This document shows positions 6,145 through 56,182 of a stretch of DNA of 64,000 nt, one piece after another. Both the position numbers and the translations under genes were made by a program. The stretch lies in contig NW_024882792.1 of NCBI RefSeq assembly GCF_019059575.1, positions 124,001 through 188,000 of the forward strand. Direction: 5' to 3'. A model generated the notes under the pieces. The model was not told the origin of the DNA and made no database searches. It worked only from the letters and a program-made list of their open reading frames with translations. Each line of letters begins with the position of its first letter. Position 1 is the stretch's first letter. The DNA comes from Amphibalanus amphitrite. Taxonomy: Eukaryota; Arthropoda; Thecostraca; Balanomorpha; Balanidae.

Positions 6145-6838
6145 TTTTTTTTTACACTGACACTGACACACCGAAACTGTTACTGACACTGACACTGACA
6201 CTGACACACTGACACTGACATAGGTACACTGGCACACTGACACTGACACACTGACACTGACTCGCTGACACGGACTCACTGACACTGAATCACTGACACT
6301 GACAGTGACTCACTGACACTGACACACTGACACTGACACATTGACACTGACTCACTGACACTGACTCACTGACACTGACACGCTGACACTGAAACACTGG
6401 CACTGACTCATTATCACTGACTGACACTGACTGACTGACACTGACTCACTGACACACTGACACACTGACACTGCTACTGACACTGTCACTCACTGTCACT
6501 GACACTGACTCACTGACACTGACTCACTGACACTGATACACTGACACTGACACTGACACACTGACACTGACTCACTGATACTGACACACTGACACTGACA
6601 CACTGACACTGACTCACTGAAACTGACACACTAGCACTGACACTGACTCACTGACACTGACTCGTTGACACTGAATCGCTGACACTGACTCACTGACACG
6701 GACTCACTGACACTCAATTTGACGAAGACACCTGACACACTGACACACTGATAGTGACACTGACTGACACTGACTGACACTGACTGGCACTGACTGTCTG
6801 ACACTGACACACTGACACTGCTACTGACACTGACACCA
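6145..6838. repeat. CACTGA minisatellite upstream of a Wnt exon
   Basis: Units of CACTGA combine into 12-14-base repeats (CTCACTGACACTGA). The array runs to within about 15 bases of the acceptor site of the exon at 6856. Confidence 0.95.
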
Positions 6839-6855: not shown

Positions 6856-6998
6856 GAACCACCAGCCGGGCCCTGCCACCCGCGAGGCCGCCGTCGTAGA
6901 CGCCCTAACTGCCGGAGCGATAGCCTACTCGCTGACTCGGAACTGCTCCAGTGGCCAGATCGCTGGCTGTACCTGTCAGACCAGACCGACCAGGAGGG
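6856..6998 (+). CDS. Wnt8: Wnt8-like, internal exon A (ATRE...NCSSG segment)
   Basis: Encodes a secreted Wnt ligand segment. After an acceptor (ctccctcctcag), the first base completes a split codon and 47 codons follow, including ATREAAVVDALTAGAIAYS, LTRNCSSG and GCTCQTRPTRR. This matches the Wnt segment in which R-E-(T/A)-A-hydrophobic is followed by a Cys-containing NCS and a short CxC loop; the brevity of that loop is typical of Wnt8. The exon ends with one base of a split codon at a gtgagt donor (phase 1). The next exon restores Ala-Asp-Asp-Trp. Upstream exons with the signal peptide and first cysteines were not found. The last ~60 bases are the seed of the 86-bp array that follows. Confidence 0.88.
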
Positions 6999-8298
6999 GT
7001 GAGTAGCCTCTGATCGGGGGACACGAAACTGCTTCAGTGGCCAGATCGCCGGCTGTACCTGTCAGACCAGACCGACCAGGAGGGGTGAGTAGCCTCTGAT
7101 CGGGGGGCTCGAAACTGCTCCACTGGCCAGATCGCCGGCTGTACCTGTCAGACCAGACCGACCAGGAGGGGTGAGTAGCCTCTGATCGGGGGACACGAAA
7201 CTGCTTCAGTGGCCAGATCGCCGGCTGTACCTGTCAGACCAGACCGACCAGGAGGGGTGAGTAGCCTCTGATCGGGGGGCTCGAAACTGCTCCACTGGCC
7301 AGATCGCCGGCTGTACCTGTCAGACCAGACCGACCAGGAGGGGTGAGTAGCCTCTGATCGGGGGACACGAAACTGCTCCACTGGCCAGATCGCCGGCTGT
7401 ACCTGTCAGACCAGACCGACCAGGAGGGGTGAGTAGCCTCTGATCGGGGGACACGAAACTGCTTCAGTGGCCAGATCGCCGGCTGTACCTGTCAGACCAG
7501 ACCGACCAGGAGGGGTGAGTAGCCTCTGATCGGGGGGCTCGAAACTGCTCCACTGGCCAGATCGCCGGCTGTACCTGTCAGACCAGACCGACCAGGAGGG
7601 GTGAGTAGCCTCTGATCGGGGGACACGAAACTGCTTCAGTGGCCAGATCGCCGGCTGTACCTGTCAGACCAGACCGACCAGGAGGGGTGAGTAGCCTCTG
7701 ATCGGGGGACACGAAACTGCTTCAGTGGCCAGATCGCCGGCTGTACCTGTCAGACCAGACCGACCAGGAGGGGTGAGTAGCCTCTGATCGGGGGACACGA
7801 AACTGCTTCAGTGGCCAGATCGCCGGCTGTACCTGTCAGACCAGACCGACCAGGAGGGGTGAGTAGCCTCTGATCGGGGGGCTCGAAACTGCTCCACTGG
7901 CCAGATCGCCGGCTGTACCTGTCAGACCAGACCGACCAGGAGGGGTGAGTAGCCTCTGATCGGGGGGCTCGAAACTGCTCCACTGGCCAGATCGCCGGCT
8001 GTACCTGTCAGACCAGACCGACCAGGAGGGGTGAGTAGCCTCTGATCGGGGGACATGGAACTGCTCCAGTGGCCAGATCGCCGGCTGTACCTGTCAGACC
8101 AGACCGACCAGGAGGGGTGAGTAGCCTCTGATCGGGGGACACGAAACTGCTTCAGTGGCCAGATCGCCGGCTGTACCTGTCAGACCAGACCGACCAGGAG
8201 GGGTGAGTAGCCTCTGATCGGGGGGCTCGAAACTGCTCCACTGGCCAGATCGCCGGCTGTACCTGTCAGAGCAGACCGACCAGGAGGGATGAGTAGAT
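6934..8298 (+). repeat. 86-bp exon-edge array: exon A 3' end plus donor, ~16 copies
   Basis: The donor core (aggaggggtgagtag) recurs every 86 bases from 7000 to 8290, giving one authentic and about 15 extra copies. Each unit holds ~60 bases of exon A's 3' end and ~26 bases of intron. Reading each copy in the exon frame gives R-R-G-E-stop, so use of a later donor would add a stop codon. Two unit subtypes alternate (ggacacgaaactgcttc and ggctcgaaactgctcc). Confidence 0.95.
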
Positions 8299-8562
8299 TT
8301 CAATCGTGAATCGGATACCAACTTTTTGGTATATCGATACCAAACCGATACCAACTTGGTATTTGGTATTTCAAGGCATTTGGTATTTTGGTATTTTGTT
8401 GGTATTATGAATCCTCACTAATGTAAAAGAGGCTGAGAATTTGGTCAAAAGTTGGCATTTTCCTCATAGTCCCGAGTCGGCTCGGTTTCGGTATTTTTCA
8501 ATGGATATTGTTGGTATTTGGTTTGGTATCGGTATCACGATTTGTCGTAATTGATATCACTA
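8294..8562 (+). mobile_element. hAT-like MITE (GGTATTTGG family), copy 1
   Basis: Shares the interior of the 262-base copies at 40011 and 52862 (ggataccaactttttggtat ... ggtttggtatcgg) and ends in cacta. It sits inside the last unit of the 86-bp array, interrupting a (a/g)tgagtag word. The left end is diverged, so the duplication is not clean. Confidence 0.75.
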
Positions 8563-8742
8563 GTGAGTGAGTAGCCTGTGATCGGGCGAATCGTGCAGGG
8601 ATGTGATATTATGACGATTTCTGTACTCCGACTTCGGTAGGAGGCAGGAGCACGACTTTTGAGGGAGATGGGAGACAGTGGGTCTATCTTCAGGACTAGA
8701 AGGGGGAAATACGGGAGGGGTTGGGTTGCAGCTTGACGAGGT
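8563..8742. other. Residual array copy and short spacer
   Basis: Begins with a broken piece of the 86-bp unit (gtgagtagcctgtgatcggg), showing the array once continued past the MITE. Nothing else recognised. Confidence 0.6.
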
Positions 8743-9647
8743 TTAACCCTCGCCGGCACAGGCCATTTTGAGTCCTTCGACGGCACAAGGGGGGGGGGGG
8801 TTGGTACGACCCCCCCTCGCGTTTGGCCCCTGATCGAGCTAGAGCTTCGCGGAAAAAAAAACGAGCGTGTTGCCCGTCACGAGAGGAAGCCGATGATACC
8901 AAATTTTAAGGTCCTAGGTCATCGGGTGACCTTCCAGGTCAGGTCAATGACCCGAAAACCGGGAAAATTGGGACCTGTTAGAAAGTCGTAAAGTGTGGCT
9001 GCTAAGTGGTTTCCCGGGGTGCTGATCACGAATATCGTGTTAGTTTTGATCAGAGATGATGTCTTTAAGCATTTAGACCAGGTCGGGTCAGGTCAGGTCA
9101 ACCGGTAGGGGTTGTGACGGGTATTCGTAATACGAGTCAACCGCCTCGGACAGCTTCGTAACATGTTACGAAGGCACCAAAACTACTTCGTAAATGTTCA
9201 AATGGTTGCTAAATTCGAATTCAGCTCCAAAAACTAGCCTAGAAACATGTAAAACTCGAAAAAGTGAACCGAGGTCACCCGAGGTCACCAAAGGTCAATG
9301 ACCTGAACTGACCTTCAGGTGACCTTGACACCCAACCTAATGCATGGGAGCAACATCAAATCACATGTTTGAACGTTTGAAACCACGAAAAGCTTGCAAA
9401 CGCGCGGCTAATGCGAGCCGACATGCGCCGAACCGCGATTTCGGCCAAACATGGTCACAGAAAAGAGGTCACAGGTCAAAGGTCATTGGGGTCAGGGTCA
9501 TGAAATTTAAAGGGTAGGTGTAAAATTGATCAATGCGAGGGTACTGAAAGTTTCGTCGCAATCGGCCGCTTTTTACGCGAGTTATTCGCGAAAAACCTTA
9601 GGGGGGGTTGCATCAACCCCCCCCCCCCCTGTGCCGGCGAGGGTTAA
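8743..9647 (+). mobile_element. TTAA-flanked non-autonomous transposon, family B copy 1
   Basis: TTAA at 8743-8746 and 9644-9647 flanks CCCTCGCCGGCACA...TGTGCCGGCGAGGG. Each end carries a G-run/loop/C-run hairpin (loops ttggtacga and ttgcatcaa). The interior is AGGTCA-rich, with no transposase. Confidence 0.85.
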
Positions 9648-10045
9648 GGATAGCCGAAGGCTATGATTTTATTCAATTATTTGATCCACAACCACATAAA
9701 CTGTATTTGCATGAAAAAAATGACGAAATGTACATGCACTTTGTAATGAGTCGTAAAACACCGTGCCAAGCCTGGCTTTAGTCCATGCGTAAAAATCGAG
9801 TGGTGTTTATTAGCTTGTGTGGGTTGCGTCGCCACGGCTCAAAGGTCAATTTATGCGTCTCGTAGTTCATTTAGTAGTTTATTGGAGTCCCCACAGTGGT
9901 GAGAGCCGGGGTTCGAGTCGATCCGCGACGATCGATGTAGGAGACTCTTGACGGGGATGGTCTCCAATTGTGCAGGAAGCATGGGAGCAGCCGAGACCAG
10001 TTGAATCAATCGATACGGTTGGGAAGGACCGTGGTCAGCAGTGTT
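9648..10045. other. Spacer, no gene seen
   Basis: Unique-looking DNA between two transposon insertions in the intron between Wnt exons A and B. Nothing recognised. Confidence 0.5.
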
Positions 10046-10106
10046 AGTGGCGGATCCATGGGGGGGGGGGCAAAATGGGCATTTGCCCCTCCCAAACGGC
10101 ATAATT

Positions 10107-10706
10107 TTAACCCGGCGGCCGCTGGGCCTCCGCGCCACCCGCCGGCCGCTGGGGGGGGGGGCATATAGTTGCCCCCCCCCTTTACTTCTGCGACGATATC
10201 GTCGCAACGCGAAGAGATAGAAAAGCGAAACTTTGCACACATCTTCCTGAATACCTAGCCGAGGTTGTGTCCAAATTTGGTGTCGATCCCATTTGAAGTG
10301 ACGTCACAGTGACGTCATAAGTGAAATTATAGATTTGCGACTCTCATATTCCTCACGATACATCAGATATATGGGACCGAACATAAAGGGTCAATTATTG
10401 GTCAGAAACTAGATGGAAGTGTAGTTAGATGTTTTAGGATGACAGCAGGTGCTGTCTAGTTCATTTACAGTTGAGTTTCATGCTCAGCGTCATCAGAAAC
10501 GGTCCATATCGGAAAACGGCAAAACTTTATGACGTCACTGTGACGTCATCTTAGGTGCTACAACCACCAAACTTTCCTCAAACATTGCCTAGGTATTCAT
10601 TTGAAGCTATGCCAAGTTTCACGTTCGTAGCTCCTCAGGTTTCGGAGATATTTCACAAAACGTAAAGGGGGGCAACTTTATGCCCCCCCAGCGGCTCGTG
10701 GGTTAA
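10107..10706 (+). mobile_element. 600-bp TTAA element with CCCGGCGGCCGC end
   Basis: TTAA at 10107-10110 and 10703-10706. Ends CCCGGCGGCCGCTG and CAGCGGCTCGTGGG are imperfect inverted repeats. G-run/loop/C-run hairpins lie near both ends. Contains tgacgtcacagtgacgtca-type words. Its right TTAA is also the left TTAA of the next element. Confidence 0.7.
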
Positions 10707-11866
10707 CCCGCGCCGGGGCGGGGGTGTTTGAACACCCCCTTGCGGTTTTTCGCAGATATCTCAAAAACGGCGGCGCGGAGCGCCGCCGTTTTTGGCACAC
10801 CTGTTTGTGCATCTTTTTCGCACATGTTATGAAAATTTCAGACCCAGGTCACCTTAGGTCAGCTCACCAGGTCACGCCAAGTGACCTCATCTCAGAAAAA
10901 ATAAGAATGCTCGTCATAGCTACACCGACCGAACGATTGCCTTGAAACTTTCAGCGATTGATTAGAGCAACACTATATATAAAATGTTTATCTCGGAATT
11001 TTGATTTCGGTGACCTAAGGTCAGGGCGGCCTCTCCATTATAAGTCAATGGGAGAAAATTGAAAAGCGTCTGTTTTGCACGAACGCTATTCTAGACACTC
11101 TCAAACATCGAGATGTAGGTAAAATAGACACACTGAACCAGAAAATGGCAACTGTGACCCCTCGTTATGTCCCCGAGGTCAGCTCAGGTCACGAACAGAA
11201 TCTAACAGTTTTTCGATGATAACTTCTAATAGAGGCGTGCTAGAGCTCTGAAAACGCCTTAGATGTGTTCGGCTCGACGTTGCAGACCGACTGATATACA
11301 ACATGACCTTTTCCGGCCAGGTCATGACCTTGACCTGAGGTCAAATTTTCAAGTTGACCTTTCAAGGTCAAATTATAGTTCATTTGACGCGTCTCGACGA
11401 GAGGAACACGATGCTGGCAAAAGTAATGTCATAGCTCTTTTGAGTCAAAAGTTATTGCCGAAAAAAAAACGTTTTTCGTAAAAACGGCTATTTTTTTAGT
11501 TTTTGCCCTCTGGAGGCTAAACCGTTGACCTGAGGTCAATTCTGAGAACATCACTCAGAAAGGTCTGTAACAGGGCTATCGAATGCGCTTTTTTTGCGGC
11601 GCTGTAGCTCTATCGGTTCCCGAGATAGCCGTCGGCAGTTTCCAAAATGTTGAAATAGTCAACATTTTACCTTTGGTGACCTCTGGTGACCTGACCTTTG
11701 ACCTGACCCAAAAAATGACCCAAGTGTTTTCGTCCTTATTTTTGACGTTCTTTCGATTGCCGCTTGCCGCGTGTCGCTACGTGGCCCAGGAGCCGAGTTA
11801 GAAGGGGGTGTTCAGACCCCCGCGGCCCGGCGCGGAATCTCAGAGCACCGGCCCGGCGCGGGTTAA
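10703..11866 (+). mobile_element. TTAA-flanked family A element, copy 2
   Basis: TTAA at 10703-10706 and 11863-11866, ends CCCGCGCC...GGCGCGGG, and the same internal order as the copy at 4889: G-run/gtgtttgaacac/C-run, GC-rich hairpin near 10763, AGGTCA-rich body. It abuts the previous TTAA element, consistent with insertion into that element's own target duplication. Confidence 0.85.
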
Positions 11867-11964
11867 CATTAGGCCTATGGACGAGGCATGGAAAGAATCG
11901 ATAAATTGCTATGGTTTGCCTCCCCCCCCCCCCAAAGAAAACTCTGAGCTGGATCCGCCTCTGG

Positions 11965-13389
11965 GCAGTGTAACCTTTCGCTCGTTTGTGTCTCTCTCAT
12001 GCAAGAGAAATAGATCCTTTGTCGGCTCACTGTTTTCCCGACCGGTTATGAGATTTCAATGATACGTTTGATTGGATTTGGGGAATAGGTTACTTTTTCG
12101 CTTTATCTGAGGCTTTTACATTTAATAATTTTTAGGTGCATCATCTCTCCAATATTGGCACCACTTACCCAGCATAAAACTATCACAGTACCATCACATG
12201 CTTGGAGAGCAATGTTTTTCAATATAGTGGCTACAACATGGTAGTTTTCGGGATGGGCCGGCACCGAACCCGAACACTCATTTATCGGACGCTCTAGCTC
12301 CGAGGATTGACCTCGTGACGTCAGGCGCGCGCACCGCGGCGGCCGGGGCGGCGCCAGAGGCTCTTTTGCTCACTGGACAGCGTGCGGCACGGTCGTGCTT
12401 TCTCATCCCACCCCCACCCCGACTGCCGCCTATGTACTCGCGCTATGCTGCAGATGTTACGTCGCGCCTCGTATACGAAAACGTTTTACCTACCTGTATT
12501 CAATAAATACACCAATAGCGGTTCCAAGTGGTTAGGACAATAACATGTTTCAGCGATGTTAGTTACGCTAGATTTCGTACTACGGAGTGATTCATATCGT
12601 TCTGTTATTTTGCGGAAGGTATTCGTCCATCGAAGTGTCATATCTTGGGCGTGCCACCTCATAAAGGCTGGCTGTGTGAAATGGTCGCTTATGTTCACCA
12701 GACGAATACATTCCCGGAACACGCGCCAGCCTTTTCCTCGGGAGCGAGACGGCGGATAAATACCATTATATGTCAGCTACTCCGTGTTCTCTGCAAAGAA
12801 GCTAGCATGCCCATCGATTTTGTAGCAATCACGTTTTTTTTTCTTCTGCGCAGTGACTCCCATCGACATTTATTTTACCGTAGCAGTGAATTATCCCTGG
12901 CACAGATGTTTCCTCGCTAATAAGCACTGTTAACGAGAGCTCTCTGAGGTGTAGCTAATATCCTGATCGCAGACGATGTGTGCGCTTATACGTGCTGTTC
13001 TCAGCAACATTGTGACCGTAAAAAACAGGCATTCACGCAGTGCCTGAGGGTGTATTTACAGCTATGCTCGGCTGCGCTGCTGTCTCAACTGTCCTCAACC
13101 ATGTGTACTAGCCAGTAGCCACTTGCCAGTACTTGACGTTCATACCTTTATGTACATGTGTGCTCTCAATTGCATCAACAGAACTGTTTTCTCTTAGTTC
13201 CTCCTGTCCTGACCTGCGTTCTCTATTTTTTTTTTTGTCCTGGATTCTGACCTGAAATTCGTCCTCATTTGATTGTCTCCTGTACTCCGCCTCTCGGTCT
13301 TTTCTCACACCAATGGGGGGGGGGGAGTACTGGAAGGAACTCCGCCAGGCACCAAACCAGATCACTTCACTTCAGTCTCTTCACATCAC
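11965..13389. other. Unique spacer, GC-rich patch, no gene seen
   Basis: Intron between Wnt exons A and B. 12300-12440 is CpG-rich (gacgtcaggcgcgcg). No credible exon was found on either strand. Confidence 0.5.
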
Positions 13390-13943
13390 GTATCTGACAT
13401 GCTGTCTCATCTTTCTCATCCCGTCCCACACTGTCTGATTATGTCTCACTTTGTGTCACACTGTCTCACACCATTGCCCTGTCTTTAGATATCTCTCACA
13501 TGGTTCACACTGTCTCACACTGTCCCACACTGTCCCGTCCCACACTGTCCCACAATGTCTCACACTGTCTCATCCCGTCTCGCACTGCCCAACACTATCT
13601 CTCACAGTGTCCCACACTGTCTCACGCTGTCTCACACTGTCTTCACACACTCTCTCTCACATTTCTTACATTGTCTAACACTATCTCACACTGTCTTCAC
13701 ACACTCTCTCACACTCTCACATATTCTCATTTTGTCTCACACTATCTTACACTGTCTTCCCACGCTATCTCACACTCTCTCACACCGTCTCACACCGTCT
13801 CACCTTATCTCACCTTTCTCGCCGCAGCTGACGACTGGCAGTGGGGAGGCTGTAGCGACAATGTCCCACACTGCCTTATACTGTCCCACGCTGTCTCACA
13901 CTGTCTCACACCGTCTCACCTTATCTCACCTTTCTCGCCGCAG
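13390..13943 (+). repeat. Pyrimidine-rich minisatellite before exon B
   Basis: Units of TCTCACACTG with variants (ctgtctcacaccg, ctgtcttcacacac) run up to the acceptor of the exon at 13944, so the polypyrimidine tract is part of an expanded array. Confidence 0.9.
13815..13864 (+). repeat. Decoy copy of exon B acceptor and first ~40 bases
   Basis: The acceptor cctttctcgccgcag and the following exon start (ctgacgactggcagtgggg) are duplicated here, 116 bases upstream of the authentic copy at 13931-13980. After gcgacaatgt the copy falls back into the TCTCACACTG array, so the exon is truncated. The first exon position differing is a silent c/t. Confidence 0.9.
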
Positions 13944-14086
13944 CTGACGACTGGCAGTGGGGAGGCTGCAGCGACAATGTGGAGTTTGGAGTGAGAATGT
14001 CCCAGCAGTTCCTGGACCATGTGCCGCTGAACATGCCGCTGCACCGGGCTCTGCTGAGACTGCACAACAACCAGGCTGGACGAGAG
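13944..14086 (+). CDS. Wnt8: Wnt8-like, internal exon B (WQWGGCSDNVEFG)
   Basis: Secreted Wnt ligand segment. CT joins the G left by exon A to give Ala, followed by DDWQWGGCSDNVEFGVRMSQQ and ending in LLRLHNNQAGRE, the near-invariant Wnt motifs WGGCSDN and LHNNxAGR. The acceptor is tttctcgccgcag. The exon ends exactly on a codon (phase 0) at gtgagata. Length is 143 bases. The last ~38 bases plus donor seed the array downstream, and the first ~40 bases plus acceptor are duplicated upstream, so both edges of this exon are amplified. Confidence 0.92.
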
Positions 14087-15305
14087 GTGAGATAACACAA
14101 CAACTCACAGTACTGAGACTTCACAACAACCAGGCTGGACGAGAGGTGAGATAACACAACAGCACACTGCTGAGACTGCACAACAACCAGACTGGACGAG
14201 AGGTGAGATAACACAACAAACACTGTCACACTGCTGAGACTGCACAACAACCAGGCTGGACGAGAGGTGAGATAGCACAACAACAAACAACAATAAACAG
14301 AGACTGCACAACAACCAGGCTGGACGAGAGGTGAGATAACACAACAACAGACAACAACAAACAACAACAGAGACTGCACAACAACCAGGCTGGACGAGAG
14401 GTGAGATAACACAACACGCTGCTGAGACTGCACAACAACCAGGCTGGACGAGAGGTGAGATAACACAACACGCTGCTGAGACTGCACAACAACCAGGCTG
14501 GACGAGAGGTGAGATAACACAACACACTGCTGAGACTGCACAACAACCAGGCTGGACGAGAGGTGAGATAACACAACACGCTGCTGAGACTGCACAACAA
14601 CCAGGCTGGACGAGAGGTGAGATAACACAACACGCTGCTGAGACTGCAAAACAACCAGGCTGGACGAGAGGTGAGATAACACAACACGCTGCTGAGACTG
14701 CACAACAACCAGGCTGGACGAGAGGTGAGATAACACAACACGCTGCTGAGACTGCACAACAACCAGGCTGGACGAGAGGTGAGATAACACAACACGCTGC
14801 TGAGACTGCACAACAACCAGGCTGGACGAGAGGTGAGATAACACAACACACTGCTGAGACTGCACAACAACCAGGCTGGACGAGAGGTGAGATTACACAG
14901 CAACAGACAACAACAAACAACAGCAGAGGCTGCACAACAATCAGGCTGGACGAGAGGTGAGATAACACGGCAAACACTGTCACACTGCTGAGACTGCACA
15001 ACAACCAGGCTGGACGAGAGGTGAGATAACACAGCAACAAAACACTGGTGAAACTGCACAACAACCAGGCTGGACGAGAGGTGAGATAACACAACAACTC
15101 ACAGTACTGAGACTGCACAACAACCAGGCTGGACGAGAGGTGAGATAGAACAACACACTGCTGAGACTGCACAACAACCAGGCTGGACGGGAGGTGAGAC
15201 ACAACAACTCACAGTACTGAGACTGCACAACAACCAGACTGGGAGAGAGAGGTGAGATAGGTAACACCACAGCAACAGTCACTGCTGAGACTGCACAACA
15301 ACCAG
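14049..15305 (+). repeat. ~54-bp exon-edge array: exon B 3' end plus donor, ~21 copies
   Basis: The word ggctggacgagaggtgagat recurs about 21 times, the first being the true exon end. The basic unit is ~54 bases; some units are lengthened by caacaa-rich inserts. In the exon frame each copy reads G-R-E-V-R-stop. The final copies (about 15235 and 15300) decay. Confidence 0.95.
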
Positions 15306-15455
15306 AATAGTGTGCGATGCGTAGCAGAACTGTAGGTTTTGTTCCGATCAATCAAAATGGATTCACAAAAATAATACATCCATTATTTATATTTCTAAGA
15401 ATATCGTTCTACAGTTGTGAAACATTTATTTGATACTTTAATGCTTAATGCTGTA

Positions 15456-15610
15456 GACTATTACGCAATGTGTTGGTCCGCTATGAAACTCAATCGCCCG
15501 AGCTCATTAAATTAATATTGGTGTCCACAGCATTACGACTATTACGCAATGTTTTGGTCCGCTATGAAACTCAATCACCCGAGCTCATTGAAATAATATG
15601 GGTGTCCACA
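15456..15610. repeat. Two tandem 81-bp repeats
   Basis: gactattacgcaatgtgttg at 15456 and a near copy at 15537, each ending gtgtccaca. The repeats differ at a few bases. The surrounding 15306-16160 is otherwise unique intron with no gene seen. Confidence 0.85.
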
Positions 15611-16164
15611 TTAACTTTTTTCATTTGAACACCGTGCAGAGGTGAAACTGTATCTGTTCACCGCTCACAGACGCGGATCCTGCTGACGATACCCTCAGGC
15701 CACCTGGTTCTACAATGTTGGCCGAACTGCGTATATCGCGAGTAACTTGCCCCTGTGGAACTTGAAACAACCGGATTTGGAAGGTTCTCATCTAATTAAG
15801 CTTTTATGAGCACCGTAGTTAGCTAGTGTAAGACATAATTGGTGGTGCATTTCGTTGCGTAGCAGGTTGAATCTTCAACAGGTTTGAATTTCATTCAGCG
15901 AGTGGGGTTGTTACACGGAGTTCAGGATTTTGCAGCGTGCCTCCGTTTAATTAAAACTGCCCGCGAGTTTATTACAACGAGCTGCATGTTTACCTAAGGC
16001 AAGGTAAACTGGATGTGGCCCGCACAATTGCAGTCGTGTTTACGTTTTTTACGTATTTCTACGTATTTACGTATTATGCTCAGGTATTTCTAGAGCATCT
16101 GTAAGTCAACTGCTAAATGTGCATATTTGCCGTTCAAATCTAGCTCATGGTGTTAAGTGTACTC

Positions 16165-16724
16165 TCTTGTATGCAGTTGGTGCGTCGCTCCACCCGGCGT
16201 CTTTGTGTCACGATCTGAACTGACCATTACCTCTCTTACAGTTGGTGCGCCGTTCGACCCGACGCCTATGCAAGTGTCACGGTGTGAACTGACCCTTACC
16301 TCTGTCTTACAGTTGGTACGCCGTTCGACGCGCCGTCTCTGCAAGTGTCACGGTCTGATCTGTCCTTTCTCTTACAGTTGGTACGTCGCTCCACCCGCCG
16401 TCTCTGCAAGTGTCACGGCGTGAACTGACCTTTACCTCCGTTCTACAGTTGGTACGCCGTTCGACCCGCCGTCTCTGCAAGTGTCACGGTGTGGACTGAC
16501 CTTTACCTCTGTTATACAGTTGGTACGTCGTTCGACCCGGCGTCTTTGTGTCACGATCTGAACTGACCTTTACCTCCGTTCTACAGTTGGTACACCGTTC
16601 GACGCGCCGTTTCTGCAAGTGTCACGGTGTGGACTGACCTTTACCTCTGTTATACAGTTGGTACGTCGTTCGACCCGGCGTCTTTGTATCACGATCTGAA
16701 CTGTCCTTTACCTCTCTTCTACAG
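16165..16724 (+). repeat. 65-71-bp exon-edge array: acceptor plus exon C start, 8 decoys
   Basis: AG followed by TTGGTRCGYCGYTC occurs with exon-like starts at 16177, 16242, 16313, 16378, 16449, 16520, 16587 and 16658, before the authentic start at 16725. Each decoy holds a pyrimidine tract, cag, and 35-50 bases of exon C. In frame they run to TGA soon after (C)KCHG or LCVTI. Two exon variants alternate, one having lost the tgcaagtg segment. Confidence 0.95.
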
Positions 16725-16864
16725 TTGGTACGCCGTTCGACGCGCCGCCTCTGCAAGTGTCACGGTGTGAGCGGCTCCTGCAGCATGGAAACATGCTGGA
16801 CCCAGATCGCAGACTTCACCATCACAGCCGAACGGGTGCGGAGACGCTACAGGAAGGCTAAACG
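16725..16864 (+). CDS. Wnt8: Wnt8-like, internal exon C (CKCHGVSGSC, lipidated Ser)
   Basis: Secreted Wnt ligand segment. Reads LVRRSTRRLCKCHGVSGSC, then SMETCWTQIADF and RVRRRYRKAKR. The Ser codon at 16770-16772 in CHGVSGSC is the Wnt serine that Porcupine acylates in known family members, needed for secretion and Frizzled binding. The acceptor is cttctacag. The exon ends with two bases of an Arg codon (phase 2) at gtgagt. 140 bases. Both edges are amplified: eight decoy acceptors upstream and at least two partial donor copies downstream. Confidence 0.93.
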
Positions 16865-16935
16865 GTGAGTCCCATGACGCTACAGGAAGGCCAAACGGTG
16901 AGAGCCATAACGCTACAGAAAAGCCAAACAATGTG
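16845..16935 (+). repeat. Short exon-edge array: exon C donor, ~3 copies
   Basis: cgctacaggaaggctaaacg-gtgag at the true exon end is followed by a second copy ending aaacggtgagag and a third, decayed copy ending aaacaatg. The unit is ~41 bases. Confidence 0.85.
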
Positions 16936-17689
16936 TATAATAGCTGTGACCATGCTGTGACCATCTGAGGCCCGACTCGGTGACAACCCGCTCGTGTCAG
17001 TGCTACTGTGTATTAGAAAATAAAAACAGGCATGATGGACTGAAGGTAAACAAAATATAACAAAAATGAGTTAGTGTGTCTGAGACAGGTCGACGCGGGT
17101 GTTCCGAATGGCTTGAGCTCGTCACAGTCTAGCAGATCATTCCTGGCACTGTGCCAAACTAGGCATCCTGCAACACAAGAGAACACTATTTCAACCATTC
17201 GGCCTATCTGATATCTCTACACGCTATACAAACGGTTAACCATACATTGGCTCTCATGAATACATACATCTGGTCATAATTATTTACAATATTCATCATA
17301 ATCTCACCACTGGCCCTTCCGCGGCCACGCCTAGGCTCAAAAGAAAGAAAATGCGCAGTTGACGCGTGCCCGTAGCACGAAAATACACTTATTGCGCGCG
17401 AGTTTCGTTTACGCCGCGATACAGTGCAACTAAATCATTAGCGCCGCAGGACAGTGCTACTAAATCATTATCACGTGTTACAACAATAGCTCTGCAATGC
17501 AGTGATTATCAAGATTTAAAATTGACAGGAATATGCTTATTATGGCTATTGTTGGATTGCTCAGTCTTATGCTCTGCTGTGATCATTTACATAGATAATC
17601 TCTGAAACATAACCCTAAACTGGAATCTATTTCTTTCCCAGACTGGCCGTGGATGTAAGCTTTTCATAAACCTATGATTGGCAACATCT
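16936..17689. other. Unique intron spacer
   Basis: Intron between exons C and D. A 28-base near-duplicate (acagtgcaactaaatcatta) lies near 17420-17470. No exon seen. Confidence 0.5.
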
Positions 17690-18141
17690 AATCTTTGACC
17701 TATAACCTCTGATATCTGACCTCTGACCTCTGGTCCGTGACCTATGGTCTCTGACCTCTAACCGTTGACCCCTGACCTCCGATCTCTTACCTTTGAACTG
17801 TGACCTCTGACTTCTGACGTCTGACTTCTGACGTCTGACTTCTTGCTTCTGACTTCTTACTTCTGACTTCTGACTTCTGACGTCTGACGTCTGACCTCTA
17901 ACCCCTAACCCCTAACCTCAGACCTCTAACCTTTGACCTGTGATCTCAGAACTCTAACCTCTGACCTCTGACCTCTGTCCTCTGACCTCTCACCTCTCAC
18001 CTCTAACCTCTGAGCAGCGACTTGTGATCTCTGACCTTTGACCGATGACCTCTGCCCTCTGACCTCTGCCCTCTAACCCCTAACCTCTGCCCTCTGCCCT
18101 CTGCCCTCTGCCCTCTGCCCTCTGACCTCTGACCTCTCCCT
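17690..18141 (+). repeat. TGACCTC minisatellite before exon D
   Basis: Units of (T)GACCTCT, TAACCTC and GCCCTCT run up to the acceptor ctctccctcag, so the pyrimidine tract of this exon is also an expanded array. Confidence 0.95.
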
Positions 18142-18144
18142 CAG

Positions 18145-18272
18145 GCTCACACTCGGCTCCGACGGTAACGACGTCTCTCCTACTGCCTCGGTCAGCTTTG
18201 AGGGTGTGCGGGTCACCGACCTGACGTACATGGACGATTCGCCAGACTTCTGCCGCACAGTGGCACCAAACG
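18145..18272 (+). CDS. Wnt8: Wnt8-like, internal exon D (DDSPDFC)
   Basis: Secreted Wnt ligand segment. Begins by completing the Arg codon of exon C, reads LTLGSDGNDVSP, then VRVTDLTYMDDSPDFCRTVA and PN, ending with the first base of a Gly codon (phase 1) at gtacgt. L-x-Y/F-x-(E/D)-D-S-P-D-F/Y-C is the usual Wnt motif before the last exon. 128 bases. The last ~10 bases plus donor seed a 20-bp array. Confidence 0.9.
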
Positions 18273-18473
18273 GTACGTAACGGCACCAAACGGTACGTAA
18301 CGACACCAAACGGTACGTAACGGCACCAAACGGTACGTAACGGCACCAAACGGTACCAAACGGCACCAAACGGTACGTAATGGCACCAAACGGTACGTAA
18401 CGGCCCCAAACGGTACGTAACGGTACCAAACGGTACGTAACGGCCCCAAACGGTACCAAACGGTACGTAACGA
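18263..18473 (+). repeat. 20-bp exon-edge array: exon D 3' end plus donor
   Basis: ggcaccaaacggtacgtaac repeats about 10 times. Decoy gtacgt donors begin at 18293, 18313, 18333, 18373, 18393, 18413, 18433 and 18463, after the true one at 18273. In frame each copy reads N-G-T-stop. A few units have lost the donor (ggtacc). Confidence 0.95.
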
Positions 18474-23113: not shown

Positions 23114-24028
23114 TTAACCCTCGCCGGCAGAGGCCATTTTGCGTCCTTCGACGGCACAGGGGCCTTACAGAGGTTTGGCCCCTGTGCCGCGAGGGGTGGT
23201 ACGACCCCCCCCCTCGCGTTTGGCCCCTGACCGAGCTAGAGCTTCGCGGAAAAAACGAGCGTGTTGCCCGTCACGAGAGGAAGCCGGTGATACCCAATTT
23301 TAAGGTCCTAGGTCATCGGGTGACCTTCCAAGTCAGGTCAATGACCCAAAAACCGGGAAAATCGGGACCTGTTAGAAAGTCGTAAAGTGTGGCTGCTATG
23401 TGGTTTTCCGGGGTGCTGATCACGAATATCGTATTAGTTTTGATCAGAGATGATGTCTTTAAGCATTTAGACCAGGTCGGGTCAGGTCAGGTCAGGTCAA
23501 CCGGTAGGGGTTGTGACGGGTATTCGTAATACGTGTCAACCGCCTCTGACAGCTTCGTAACATGCTACGAAGGCACCAAAACTACTTCGTAAATGTTCAA
23601 ATGGTTGCTAAATTCGAATTCAGCTCCAAAAACTAGTCTAGAAACATGAAAAACTCGAAGAAGTGAACCGAGGTCACCAAAGGTCAATGACCTGACCTGA
23701 CCTTCAGCTGACCTTGAAACCCACCCTAGTGTATGGGAGCAACATCAAATCACATGTTTGAACGTTTGAAACCACGAAAAGCTTGCAAACGCGCGGCTAA
23801 TGCGAGCCGACATACGCCGAATCGCGATTCCGGCCAAACATGGTCTCGGAAAAGAGGTCACAGGTCAAAGGTCATTTGGATCAGGGTCAAAAAATTTCAG
23901 GGTAGGTGTAAAATTGAGCAATGCGAGGGTACTGAAAGTTTCGTCGCGATCGGCCGCTTTTTACGCGAGTTATTCGCGAAAAACCTTAGGGGGGATTGCA
24001 TCAACCCCCTTGTGCCGGCGAGGGTTAA
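23114..24028 (+). mobile_element. Family B TTAA element nested in an older family B copy
   Basis: TTAA at 23114-23117 and 24025-24028, ends CCCTCGCCGGCA...TGCCGGCGAGGG. The flanks rejoin into the family B word caattttaaggtcctaggtc, so the host is a relative of the guest. The left end has a small scrambled patch (aggggccttacagaggtt) near 23157-23180. Confidence 0.85.
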
Positions 24029-25525
24029 AATTGGGTATCATCGGCCTTCTCTCGTCAAGGGCAACACGCTCTTTTTCCGCGAAGCTCTAGCTCGATTAGG
24101 GGCTGAACGGCAAAGGGGTCCAACGGACCCTCCTCCCCCTCTTTACGATAGACGCTGACAAAACACCAATATGGGCGAGGGTGAAAATACAGCTGCTGTC
24201 ATAAAAATTCAGCTTGAACCAAAGGTCAGGCTTGCCAAATTTCAGCTCTCGCAGCTATCAACAAAAATAAACATGTGGAGGCAGCACCCGCCTCCCCCCC
24301 CCCCCGTCCTCTCGGCCACTGCCAGCGAGGTTGCGTATCATACATGTTACAAAGCATCATATCAAGATGACACACCCCAGCAGCCTGAACAAAAACTTAT
24401 TACCCACGCTAGTCTATCGGCACCATAGCACATGGTCGAGACTGTCGTCAGCCACGGACTCGCACTCGACCAACCCTCTGAGCCCGTTGACTGCGGGTGA
24501 CCTTGACATGTCTAGACTGATCGGCGGCCGGCCGCTGTCGTGCGGTCGTTACACGCGGAGGGGAGAGAGACACAAAGTTCTACGTTATAGCTGACCTCTG
24601 ACCTTTCCCTGCGCCCTGGTCACCGACCCCGCTCCATGTCGCTGGGCGGTGGCATGGCGGTGGAAACCGGTTCTAGCCTCTACACATGCCACCATTCTAA
24701 CCCTCCCCTCCCCACGCTACTACGCGGCGTGGAGTACGCTCGTGCGTAACTGGGCGGAGCAAGGGGTCACGCGATACAGGGGCGGAACTGGTTGCCCTCC
24801 CGCTCGCCGAGCGACCAACGACTAATACCCTGGAGAACCGTACGGTTCGACTAATACCCTGGAGAACCGTACGGTTCTCCAGGGTATTAGTCGTTGGTCG
24901 CTCGGCGAACGGGAGGGCAACCAGTTCCGCCCCTGTATCGCGTGACCCCTTGCTCCGCCCAGTTACGCACGAGCGTACTCCACGCCGCGTAGTAGCGTGG
25001 GGAGGGGAGGGTTAGAATGGTGGCATGTGTAGAGGCTAGAACCGGTTTCCACCGCCATGCCACCGCCCAGCGACATGGAGCGGGGTCGGTGACCAGGGCG
25101 CAGGGAAAGGTCAGAGGTCAGCTATAACGTAGAACTTTGTGTCTCTCTCCCCTCCGCGTGTAACGACCGCACGACAGCGGCCGGCCGCCGATCAGTCTAG
25201 ACATGTCAAGGTCACCCGCAGTCAACGGGCTCAGAGGGTTGGTCGAGTGCGAGTCCGTGGCTGACGACAGTCTCGACCATGTGCTATGGTGCCGATAGAC
25301 TAGCGTGGGTAATAAGTTTTTGTTCAGGCTGCTGGGGTGTGTCATCTTGATATGATGCTTTGTAACATGTATGATACGCAACCTCGCTGGCAGTGGCCGA
25401 GAGGACGGGGGGGGGGGAGGCGGGTGCTGCCTCCACATGTTTATTTTTGTTGATAGCTGCGAGAGCTGAAATTTGGCAAGCCTGACCTTTGGTTCAAGCT
25501 GAATTTTTATGACAGCAGCTGTATT

Positions 25526-27223
25526 TTCACCCTCGCCCATATTGGTGTTTTGTCAGCGTCTATCGTAAAGAGGGGGAGGAGGGTCCGTTGGACCCCTTTG
25601 CCGTTCAGCCCCTAATCGAGCTAGAGCTTCGCGGAAAAAGAGCGTGTTGCCCTTGACGAGAGAAGGCCGATGATACCCAATTTTAACCCTCGCCGGCACA
25701 AGGGGGTTGATGCAATCCCCCCTAAGGTTTTTCGCGAATAACTCGCGTAAAAAGCGGCCGATCGCGACGAAACTTTCAGTACCCTCGCATTGCTCAATTT
25801 TACACCTACCCTGAAATTTTTTGACCCTGATCCAAATGACCTTTGACCTGTGACCTCTTTTCCGAGACCATGTTTGGCCGGAATCGCGATTCGGCGTATG
25901 TCGGCTCGCATTAGCCGCGCGTTTGCAAGCTTTTCGTGGTTTCAAACGTTCAAACATGTGATTTGATGTTGCTCCCATACACTAGGGTGGGTTTCAAGGT
26001 CAGCTGAAGGTCAGGTCAGGTCATTGACCTTTGGTGACGTCGGGTGATCTCGGTTCGCTTTTTCGAGTTTTACATGCTTCTAGGCTAGTTTTTGGAGCTG
26101 AATTTGAATTTAGCAACCATTTGAACATTTACGAAGTAGTTTTGGTGCCTTCGTAACATGTAACGAAGATGTCAGAGGCGGTTGACACGTATTACGAATA
26201 CCCGTCACAACCCCTACCGGTTGACCTGACCTGACCTGACCCGACCTGGTATAAATGCTTAAAGACATCATCTCTGATCAAAACTAATACGATATTAGTG
26301 ATCAGCACCCCGGAAAACCACATGGCAGCCACACTTTACGACTTTCTAACAGGTCCCGATTTTCCCGGTTTTTGGGTCATTGACCTGACCTGGAAGGTCA
26401 CCCGATGACCTAGGACCTTAAAATTGGGTATCATCGGCTTCCTCTCGTGACGGGCAGCACGCTCGTTTTTTCCGCGAAGCTCTAGCTCGATCAGGGGCCA
26501 AACGCGAGGGGGAGTCGTACCAACCCCCCTTGTGCCGTCGAAGAACGCAAAATGGCCTGTGCCGGCGAGGGTTAAGGTCCTAGGTGATTGGTTGACAGGT
26601 CAATATAACTCAAAAGTCGGGGAATCGGGACCTGTTAGAGCTTCGTAAAGTGAAGCTGTTATAGGGTTTTGCGGGGTGCTGATCACGAAATTCAAGTTAG
26701 TTTTGATCACAGAGGATGTTTTCGTGCATTTAGGCCAGGTCGGGTCAGGTCAGGTCACATGTTACGAGTGAACCAAAACAACTTCTTAAATGTTCAAACG
26801 GTTTCTAAATGCGAAATCAACTCCAAAATCTACCCTAGAAACATGTAGAACTCGAAAGAGTGAACAAAGGTCATCAAAGGTCAGTGACCTGACTGATCTT
26901 CACGTGAACTTGATACCCACTAAAATCCATGCGATCAACATCCTTTCACATGTTTGATCGCTTAAAGCCACAAAAAGACAATAAAACGCGTTCTACTCGA
27001 AATACGCCAAAACGCGATTCCGGCCAAACACGGTCTCGGAACACAGGTCACAAGTCAAAGGTCTTTTGAGTAAGGGTCATGCAAATTATAGGGTAGACGT
27101 AATATTGAATAACTCGAGGGTACTGAAAGTTTCGCCGCAATCAGCCGCTTTTTGCGCGAGTTATTTGCGAAAAACTGAGGGTAGGAGGTCTGTTCGACAC
27201 CCTCCTACAAGTGCGAAGGTTAA
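25526..27223 (+). mobile_element. Older family B element, right-arm mirror copy
   Basis: Mirror of 22299-24185: decayed left end ttcaccctcgccc and right end gcgaaggttaa. It lacks the MITE found in the left arm. Confidence 0.65.
25683..26575 (-). mobile_element. Family B TTAA element, right-arm mirror copy
   Basis: Mirror of 23114-24028, TTAA at 25683-25686 and 26572-26575. Its left-end hairpin is less scrambled than in the other arm. It predates the palindrome because both arms have it. Confidence 0.85.
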
Positions 27224-36013: not shown

Positions 36014-36234
36014 GCGACATTGGCACGCGCGGGCGGGAGTGTTCGCGTGCCACCGGTCCGGGGGTTACCCACGCCGAACGACGCTCCTGTAAAAACCTCT
36101 GTCGACGCTGTGGCCGCAGAGTCAAACGCCAGGTTACAGAGGTCAAGACATCGTGTAACTGCAAATTCCACTGGTGTTGTCAGGTCACGTGCGACACGTG
36201 CACGCAAAAGTCGTACAAATATACGTGCCGGTAA
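36014..36234 (+). CDS. Wnt8: Wnt8-like, terminal exon E with stop
   Basis: C-terminal cysteine-rich domain of the Wnt ligand, the part that contacts Frizzled and LRP in known structures. GC joins the G from exon D to give Gly, then DIGTRGRECSRAT, HAERRSCKNLCRRCGRRVKR, TSCNCKFHWCCQVTCDTC and a final YTCR before TAA at 36232. The SCNCKFHWCC block and C-x-x-LC-x-x-CG spacing are the best Wnt8 marks here. The acceptor is tttttcattttcag. The visible exons give about 258 residues of an expected ~350. Unlike the other exons, its acceptor is not amplified. Confidence 0.93.
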
Positions 36235-45572: not shown

Positions 45573-46320
45573 CAGTGGCGGATCCAAGGGGGTCATATGG
45601 GTCATGCCCCCCCCCTTGGGGCCCTTGCGGTGCCCCACGGGGGCACCACAGGCCTGCCAGGGCTACCACCGGCCTATCAATTCCTAGGGGCACCACAGGC
45701 CTGACGGGGGCACCACAGGCCCTCCAGGGGCACCCAACGGCCTCGCAGGGGCCAGGGGCACCCCTGGCCTCACAGGGGCACCACCGGCTTCGCAGGGCCC
45801 AGGGGCACCTTGGGCTTATCAGAGGCACTTCAGGTTTGTCAGGGGCACCACAGTCCTGCCAGGGCCTAGGGGCACCAGCGGCCTAGCAGGGGCACCACGG
45901 GGCTGTCAGGGGCACCATAAGTCTGTCAGGGGCACCTCAGGCTTGTCAGGGCCCAGGGTCACCACAGTCCTTTCAGGGGCACCACAGGCCTGTCAGGGAC
46001 ACCAGAGGTCTGTCAGGGGCACCACAGGCCAGCCAGGGGCACCACCGGCCTCGCAGGGGCATCTTGGGCCCGTCAGGGGCACCACGTGCCTGTCAGGGAC
46101 ACTTCAGGCCTTTCAGGGGCACCACAGTTCTGTCAGGGCCCAGGGGCAGGGGAAAAATTAAAAAAAAAAACAGGAAAAAAATAAAAATAGGGCCCACCAC
46201 AAAAATAGGCCCACAAAATTAAGTGGCCGAAATCCGTTAAGTTTTAATTTTGGGTATAGGTAGGGGCCCCACTTCGATTCATGACCCCCCCCCCCTGGAG
46301 TTTTTCTGGATCCGCCCCTG
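45573..46320. mobile_element. hAT-like MITE carrying a GGGGCACCACAGG minisatellite
   Basis: Ends CAGTGGCGGATCCA and TGGATCCGCCCCTG, flanked by gaaggaat (45565-45572) and gagggaat (46321-46328), 7 of 8 matching. From about 45625 to 46150 the interior is a ~21-base array of ggggcaccacaggcctgtca. Confidence 0.85.
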
Positions 46321-53272: not shown

Positions 53273-53966
53273 TTACGGAGCGAGCGAAGCGAGCGTAGTC
53301 TTTCCTTAGATTAACGGAAATTTCTGAGTATGAGCGGCCGGCCGGCCGGCCGGCCGGCCGTGGTCACGCTTTTGCGAGGCTTATATCTCAGCAACCACTT
53401 GACCGATTTACACGCGGTAATTTTTGTAGGGTAGCTTCATTCCTTCTACCAAGTATTGGACTATTCCCGATGCATGTGGGTGACCCCTTATGCACGTGCC
53501 ACGTGCAAAACGAAGAGGTGTCAGTTTTGTAATTGTTGCAATATCTCGGTAACTACTTGGCCAATTGCGCTGAAAGTTGGCATGTAGGTAGGCACCCACT
53601 AGGCACTGCATATACATGTGCCAGAGTTGGGGTGCTGCTGCACGTGCGCACGTGCAGGGGTCGTTTCCAGATCTCGGGAACGGCTGGACCGATTGCGCTC
53701 AAATTTGGTACACGGTTAGGGACCGGTTAGTAGGGTGCCGTGCACAAGTCAGTTGGGACCCATTTTGCACGTGCGCACGTGCAGGGTGCCGCTTCCAGAT
53801 CTCGAGAACGGCTGGGCCGATTGTGCCCAAATTTGGCACATCGCTAGAGACCAGTTAGTAGGGTGCCGTGCACAAGTCAGTTGGAGGTACCCCCTCGCAA
53901 TTTCGCACGTGCAAGGCCCACCCTCTCGCTCGCTCCGTTAGTCGCCCCAAAAGGCGTTATACTGGT
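53273..53966 (+). repeat. 690-bp GCGAGCGAAGCGAGCG repeat, copy 1
   Basis: Starts ttacggagcgagcgaagcg, followed by a GGCC run, and ends cgttatactggt. Inside, a module containing ctcgagaacggctggaccga and the self-complementary GCACGTGCGCACGTGC occurs twice. Mobile status is inferred from the second copy at 55494; no target duplication is clear. No coding region. Confidence 0.85.
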
Positions 53967-55493: not shown

Positions 55494-56182
55494 TTACGGA
55501 GCGAGCGAAGCGAGCGTAGTCTTTCCTTAGATTAACGGAAATTTCTGAGTATGAGCGGCCGGCCGGCCGGCCGGCCGTGGTCACGCTTTTGCGAGGCTTA
55601 TATCTCAGCAACCACTTGACCGATTTACACGCGGTAATTTTTGTAGGGTAGCTTCATTCCTTCTACCAAGTATTGGACTATTCCCGATGCATGTGGGTGA
55701 CCCCTTATGCACGTGCCACGTGCAAAACGAAGAGGTGTCACTTTTGTAATTGTTGCAATATCTCGGTAACTACTTGGCCGATTGCGCTGAAAGTTGGCAT
55801 GTAGGTAGGCACCCACTAGGCACTGCATATACATGTGCCAGAGTTGGGGTGCTGCTGCACGTGCGCACGTGCAGGGGTCGTTTCCAGATCTCGAGAACGG
55901 CTGGACCGATTGCGCTCAAATTTGGTACACGGTTAGGGACCGGTTAGTAGGGTGCCGTGCACAAGTCAGTTGGGACCCATTTTGCACGTGCGCACGTGCA
56001 GGGTGCCGCTTCCAGATCTCGAGAACGGCTGGGCCGATTGTGCCCAAATTTGGCACATCGCTAGAGACCAGTTAGTAGGGTGCCGTGCACAAGTCAGTTG
56101 GAGGTACCCCCTCGCAATTTCGCACGTGCAAGGCCCACCCTCTCGCTCGCTCCGTTAGTCGCCCAAAAGGCGTTATACTGGT
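55494..56182 (+). repeat. 690-bp GCGAGCGAAGCGAGCG repeat, copy 2
   Basis: Differs from copy 1 by about three substitutions (for example caattgcgc/cgattgcgc and ctcgggaac/ctcgagaac), one fewer GGCC and one deleted C. Left and right flanks differ completely from those of copy 1. Confidence 0.9.

Follow-up and report, generated by a model that had tools for sequence, protein, structure and literature searches.

We found that many exon edges of a Wnt8 gene in the barnacle Amphibalanus amphitrite are repeated in tandem arrays, and that each array unit consists of the edge of the exon concerned together with its splice site. The window, by which we mean the whole 64,000-nucleotide stretch of DNA that was analysed, is positions 124001-188000 of contig C1295 in assembly G000 (807.5 Mb, 2644 contigs), and it holds exons A to E of the gene. 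Within it all 4 of the 4 visible donors (A to D) and 2 of the 5 acceptors (B and C) are arrayed. Arrays of this kind are known as 'mirage' minisatellites in amphioxus, and our data indicate that they probably reflect ordinary tandem duplication, tolerated where one intact edge survives, rather than a process targeted to exon borders.

When exons A to E are joined at their first donors and last acceptors they give a single open frame of 257 amino acids, in which Pfam identifies a wnt domain (E 1.6e-72). The top matches of a PDB search with this product were solved Wnt-8 chains. The top protein match was 'protein Wnt-8b-like' of A. amphitrite, at an identity that rounds to 100% but includes a T/S difference; it was followed by the barnacle Pollicipes pollicipes (73%), and Branchiostoma Wnt8 matched at 44%. 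The DNA is therefore from a barnacle, and amphioxus was rejected as its source. The exons are as follows, in window coordinates.

6856..6998, plus strand: functional exon A of Wnt8; its first donor leaves phase 1, and the frame continues into exon B
13944..14086, plus strand: Wnt8 exon B, functional
16725..16864, plus strand: Wnt8 exon C, functional
18145..18272, plus strand: Wnt8 exon D, functional
36014..36234, plus strand: last Wnt8 exon, E, with the stop codon

Three further coding exons lie upstream of the window, near C1295 positions 114453, 119781 and 120406. These are the first exon, a short exon of ~11 residues and one encoding approximately residues 38-76.

The Wnt8 arrays were delimited with Tandem Repeats Finder (TRF), by direct reading of the sequence and by scripted location of the splice sites. 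The following features were observed at the exon edges.

6934..8296, plus strand: exon A donor array, 16 repeats of an 86-bp unit made up of 65 nt of exon end, GTGAGTAG and 13 nt of intron
8297..8567, plus strand: insert of ~271 bp between two TGAGTAG words, within the last A unit
13771..13980, plus strand: exon B acceptor duplication, 116 bp x 1.8, 2 copies
14054..15305, plus strand: exon B donor array, 20 units, each 54-70 bp long and made up of 33 nt of exon end, GTGAGATAACAC and a variable spacer
16177..16770, plus strand: exon C acceptor array, 9 acceptors spaced 65-71 bp apart
16843..16941, plus strand: exon C donor array, 3 repeats of a 33-bp unit, donor 3 broken
18262..18456, plus strand: exon D donor array, ~10 units of 20 bp, each 11 nt of exon end and GTACGTAAC

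The protein comes from the copy that continues into the exon body, and the others, which we call ghosts, gave no open product in the tests made. In the A array unit 1 is functional and the last unit has its GT changed to AT; units A01 and A16 diverge from the inner units, the A array being the only one judged in this respect. The insert in the last A unit has loosely inverted ends and by eye resembles a miniature inverted-repeat transposable element, and the intron resumes after it. At the B acceptor a ghost acceptor with 36 nt of exon B (from 13828) is followed by the functional acceptor. The exon part and donor of the B donor units are nearly constant while the spacer varies, many of the donors are identical, and degenerate copies trail the 20 units. 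Each C acceptor unit contains a polypyrimidine tract, AG and ~40 nt of exon C, and the last unit is the functional one. Units C06 and C08 are identical over the part compared, which points to a recent duplication of a 138-bp double unit.

A sequence-only reading of the window had proposed that the 3' exon end plus donor is repeated at exons A to D in units of ~86, ~54, ~41 and 20 bp. We found the arrays and the units of 86, 54 and 20 bp as described; the C unit is 33 bp. The same reading had placed arrays at acceptors as well, which is correct for B (116 bp) and C (~71 bp), and had taken them to be exon-specific, in keeping with a genome search in which, among the best candidates scored, the A unit matched only at the Wnt8 locus and its second haplotype. 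Its claim that every visible donor is arrayed holds in the window but does not extend to the whole gene, as no TRF array was found at the donors of the three upstream coding exons. Among those exons only the last has a duplicated acceptor, and it does so in both haplotypes; no TRF array was found at the exon E acceptor. For the whole gene on C1295, 7/14 coding edges are therefore arrayed (4/7 donors and 3/7 acceptors). TRF arrays with a period of at least 18 contain 5 of the 9 window edges, the B donor not being among them because TRF starts that array too late; the corresponding P values, 0.006 by circular shifts and 0.0005 by independent placement, are those of a gene picked because it is striking.

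A second contig, C1857 (98,491 bases), is collinear with C1295 over Wnt8, with matching stretches at ~80-95% identity, and across six compared exons 50/892 bases differ. Since coding diversity of ~5% is reported for the related barnacle Balanus improvisus (PMC8270832), the two copies are most likely alleles, a recent duplicate being the alternative. Copy numbers on C1295 and C1857, respectively, are 16 and 4 at the A donor, 2 and 1 at the B acceptor, 20 and 19 at the B donor, 9 and 2 at the C acceptor and 3 and 5 at the C donor. Broken ghost donors occur on both contigs. The two functional A units differ at five positions. Position 21 is C in 16/16 C1295 copies and G in the functional copy and both full ghosts of C1857. 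Position 47, the T/S site, encodes S in all three C1857 copies and T in the C1295 copies bar the last unit. These two positions track the haplotype; thus the copies are related to the exon of the haplotype that carries them, the far end retains an older state and homogenisation is incomplete.

We determined the consequence of using other sites in the window by changing one site at a time. The 49 alternatives, all at unbroken sites with the exact motif, comprised donors of exons A (14), B (18), C (1) and D (7) and acceptors of exons B (1) and C (8), and 49/49 led to an early stop. On C1857, taking the first donor and last acceptor yields residues 38-333 of NCBI protein P0001, which is apparently annotated on that contig. 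The repeats in the arrays apparently leave the protein unchanged. Exon definition and the decay of wrong transcripts are established ideas, and the early stops would fit both. A second NCBI protein for Wnt8, P0002, lacks part of exon A and, by our reading of the sequence, runs into array-like sequence. Exon-edge arrays seem, as in this example, to mislead gene prediction.

The exon parts of the C acceptor array carry a coding footprint. Variable columns at codon positions 1, 2 and 3 number 1/10, 1/10 and 9/10 (positions 1+2 vs 3, P = 3.5e-5), and in the first eight codons only, before a 4-nt gap in three of the ghosts, they number 0/8, 1/8 and 7/8. In the adjoining intron 21/32 columns are variable (14/32 without the first unit). 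We found 11/13 distinct changes in this array to be synonymous (P 1.3e-4; 7e-5 to 3e-4 with transition weights of 1-8). Unit C07, two units before the functional C09, carries both amino-acid changes of C1295 in the compared 30 nt. The codon pattern suggests that the ghost C acceptor copies probably descend from the working exon.

We then consider the other Wnt genes of the assembly. A Pfam search of the genome gave 99 Wnt exon matches, of which 53 were taken with the aim of one haplotype per gene; removal of three C488 matches, which are the same exons as those of C182, left 50 exons in the survey. Wnt8 was kept out of this set, as were a gene on C40 that is nearly intronless (two matches) and the other second haplotypes, with the exception that five second-haplotype stretches facing arrayed edges were examined. 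Exon edges in the survey are the ends of Pfam matches, not of mapped transcripts, and TRF arrays have a period of at least 15. Such arrays cover 4/40 donor edges and 1/39 acceptor edges (5/79 splice edges), 0/11 first-exon starts and 1/10 stop-codon ends. Array bases make up 38/7716 of exon interior vs 2131/30351 of flanks; in eight random stretches, taken as background, 3305/80000 bases are arrayed. The further clear mirages observed in other Wnt genes were these.

C189 (L041): 47-bp donor array, 5 units; its counterpart on the other haplotype, C827 (L065), has one copy only, and the flanks of the two match at 94-96% identity
C415 and C336: 26-bp donor array
C119 and C647: 20-bp donor array
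C182: 54-bp acceptor array
C73 (L061; x 12) and C174: 30-bp acceptor-signal array
C131 (L036 562-980) and C375 (L069): 31-bp array over a Wnt stop codon, in both haplotypes

The 31-bp array starts in the last codons, spans the stop codon and continues downstream. The C73 array is a convincing acceptor array with almost no exon sequence; it ends 27 nt before the Pfam match and by rule was not counted. Conversely, an array at L060 (16 bp x 2.5) is counted in the 5/79 by rule, yet we do not regard it as a convincing mirage. We also rejected as a mirage an array with GTGAGT units in random stretch L024, which resembles one when read on the plus strand. The open frame adjacent to it, on the minus strand, is cadherin-like by eye, and the array apparently does no more than adjoin the donor of that frame.

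The scarcity of arrays inside exons, the presence of an array in one haplotype and not the other, and the array over a stop codon together favour tolerance of ordinary duplications. Such duplications would arise by slippage or unequal exchange, as in minisatellites generally. Those within an exon would break the protein and be removed, while those across an exon edge would be close to neutral, as a spliceosome that defines short exons would take the first donor or the last acceptor. Use of another copy would give an early stop and decay. A stop codon would fall under the same rule, the first one in the frame being decisive. As an array expands close to the exon, successive copies would take over the functional role, and the ghosts may therefore hold past versions of the exon end.

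A further reading extends this scheme to two-way traffic in hyper-diverse animals, where a working edge seeds ghosts, the ghosts evolve and variants return to the working position. The 1, 1, 9 codon pattern of the C acceptor array, the T/S variant in the A units and the stop-codon array fit such traffic; the return step is hypothetical, and we regard the whole as speculative and rather unlikely. If it were true, the arrays would be both an archive and a rewriting engine of exon ends, and raw material for new introns.

Alternatively, the arrays could result from a process directed at exon edges, such as breakage or template switching where the DNA carries splice signals or where RNA-DNA hybrids form during splicing, as the claim that a mechanism targets exon-intron borders implies. 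In its favour are the seven arrayed edges of Wnt8 and the surroundings of the 79 other Wnt edges. An array lies within 80 nt of 11/79 edges, vs 6.6%, 6.1% and 8.2% of 80-nt windows in three backgrounds (P 0.015, 0.008 and 0.057). Counted outward in 80-nt bins, exon-proximal array ends number 11, 1, 2, 2 and 1, with arrays that enter the exon included in the first bin, and array coverage is 9-13% within 80 nt of edges and 1-7% beyond 160 nt. However, the edge base itself lies in an array at 5/79 edges, compared with 4.1% of random positions (P = 0.23), which is about the background rate. When the near windows were compared with windows 160-399 nt from the same edges, Fisher P was 0.10, and 0.28 and 0.23 with shorter periods admitted. 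In chaperonin genes TRF arrays touch 0/11 exon matches, examined at two loci (of 101 matches), and one array starts 26 nt past a match. Finally, the stop-codon array sits where no splicing happens. We therefore do not uphold border targeting, and consider a process aimed at edges unlikely.

Several observations weigh against tolerated duplication as well. Neutrality does not explain the load of Wnt8, where 7/14 edges are arrayed vs 5/79 in other Wnt genes (P = 2e-4, a post hoc value for a gene chosen for this property), nor does it account for arrays being commoner in the 80 nt next to an edge; there may be a modest pull towards exon edges. At 3/5 of the differing A-unit positions the ghosts do not match the functional copy of their own haplotype: positions 30 and 51 each have one functional copy that differs from all the ghosts, whichever haplotype these belong to, and position 3 is mixed among the C1295 ghosts. 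Synonymous changes are not above chance in the A array (3/8) or the B array (4/9). Without the C acceptor they amount to 12/24 vs 6.4 expected (P = 0.013), and no array other than that of the C acceptor shows a clear footprint; the copies are related, and hence the changes counted are not independent. The use of first donors and last acceptors is itself inferred from the reading frame and one annotated protein.

Selection could instead keep the repeats as spare splice sites or for regulated alternative splicing of Wnt8. The constancy of exon part and donor in the B array beside a variable spacer, and its many identical donors, are what such selection might produce. But none of the 49 alternatives avoids an early stop, copy number differs several-fold between haplotypes, the B acceptor duplication is missing from the other haplotype, and some ghost donors are broken in both. 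We judge this explanation very unlikely. That the arrays are false expansions of simple edges created in assembly is highly unlikely, even though PMC8270832 reports that a related barnacle's genome was hard to assemble, because at most of these edges two separate contigs carry arrays that are related but different and vary internally, their units having variants of their own and types that follow an order, and splice-edge arrays occur in both haplotypes of the Wnt genes on C415/C336, C119/C647 and C73/C174.

Tandem arrays at exon borders have a precedent. The sequence-only reading pointed to border-spanning minisatellites in amphioxus genes, and PMC3087553 indeed describes them. According to PMC3087553 and PMC3902484, mirages occur in amphioxus Adh3, the globins BflGb6 and BflGb9, and PGBD5; their repeats span the exon-intron boundary at donors or acceptors, many units retain AG/GT, and regular splicing is reported, supported by RT-PCR. 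Copy number differs between haplotypes, with 6 vs 3 units in BflGb6, and boundary units escape homogenisation (PMC3087553, PMC3902484), and somatic length instability of Adh3 is reported in PMC3087553. Barnacle Wnt8 resembles the mirages in its head-to-tail units over the exon-intron boundary, in copy-number variation between haplotypes and, in the A array, in diverged end units and homogenised inner ones. It differs in its host, an arthropod and not a cephalochordate, and in that its splicing is predicted from sequence. Three further differences are arrays at half of one gene's coding edges, codon-periodic ghosts and a stop-codon array in a related Wnt gene; we found none of these reported for amphioxus mirages in the sections consulted of PMC3087553 and PMC3902484. 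Literature searches, whose coverage mostly leaves out subscription journals, gave no barnacle report of such arrays among the matches listed.

Two other systems are comparable. In the Rogers model, as cited in PMC3087553, introns are gained by tandem duplication of AGGT-bearing exon segments. The Wnt8 arrays share with this model a tandem duplication with splice signals inside a gene, but span an existing boundary and merely lengthen the intron. The potato RdRp gene is reportedly a case of intron gain by tandem duplication. With ordinary intronic minisatellites the Wnt8 arrays share unit sizes, higher-order units (the 138 bp of C) and diverged end units, whereas those minisatellites lack exon sequence and a functional splice site. 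Two simple arrays, both without exon sequence, also lie in the Wnt8 introns.

6154..6836, plus strand: intronic array of 14-bp (ACACTGAC-type) units that stops 19 nt short of the exon A acceptor
17696..18137, plus strand: intronic TGACCTC (7-bp) array, ending 7 nt before the exon D acceptor

The word CTGAC, which we take to be branch-point-like, occurs 74 times in the 683-nt array before the exon A acceptor and 22 times in that before exon D. The idea that these 74 and 22 copies are tandem branch points was rejected, as none is present in the B array.

Other repeats were observed in and around the window. Two long GGTAGG hexamer arrays lie upstream of exon A (894-1166 and 2183-2619), and a self-complementary palindrome of 3.3 kb (97.7%) occupies 23193-26527. 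A GGGGCACCACAGGCCTGTC-type array is present at three separate loci (window 45632-46148, L070 2070-2728 and L021 9833-9945) and probably represents a dispersed minisatellite family. Tandem pairs of 127-128 bp, beginning GCACGTGCGCACGTGC, are found at window 53639-53884 and 55856-56101, at L025 8487-8728 and at C1857:82445-82763, and are probably part of a dispersed element.

Our data suggest that border-spanning arrays can arise in an animal unrelated to amphioxus and are not confined to that lineage. With tandem rows of as many as 20 near-identical donors, and haplotypes that carry 16 vs 4 units at one donor, barnacle Wnt8 is a natural experiment on splice-site choice. Exon-edge arrays of this kind are also raw material for intron gain, and one that can be traced between alleles.

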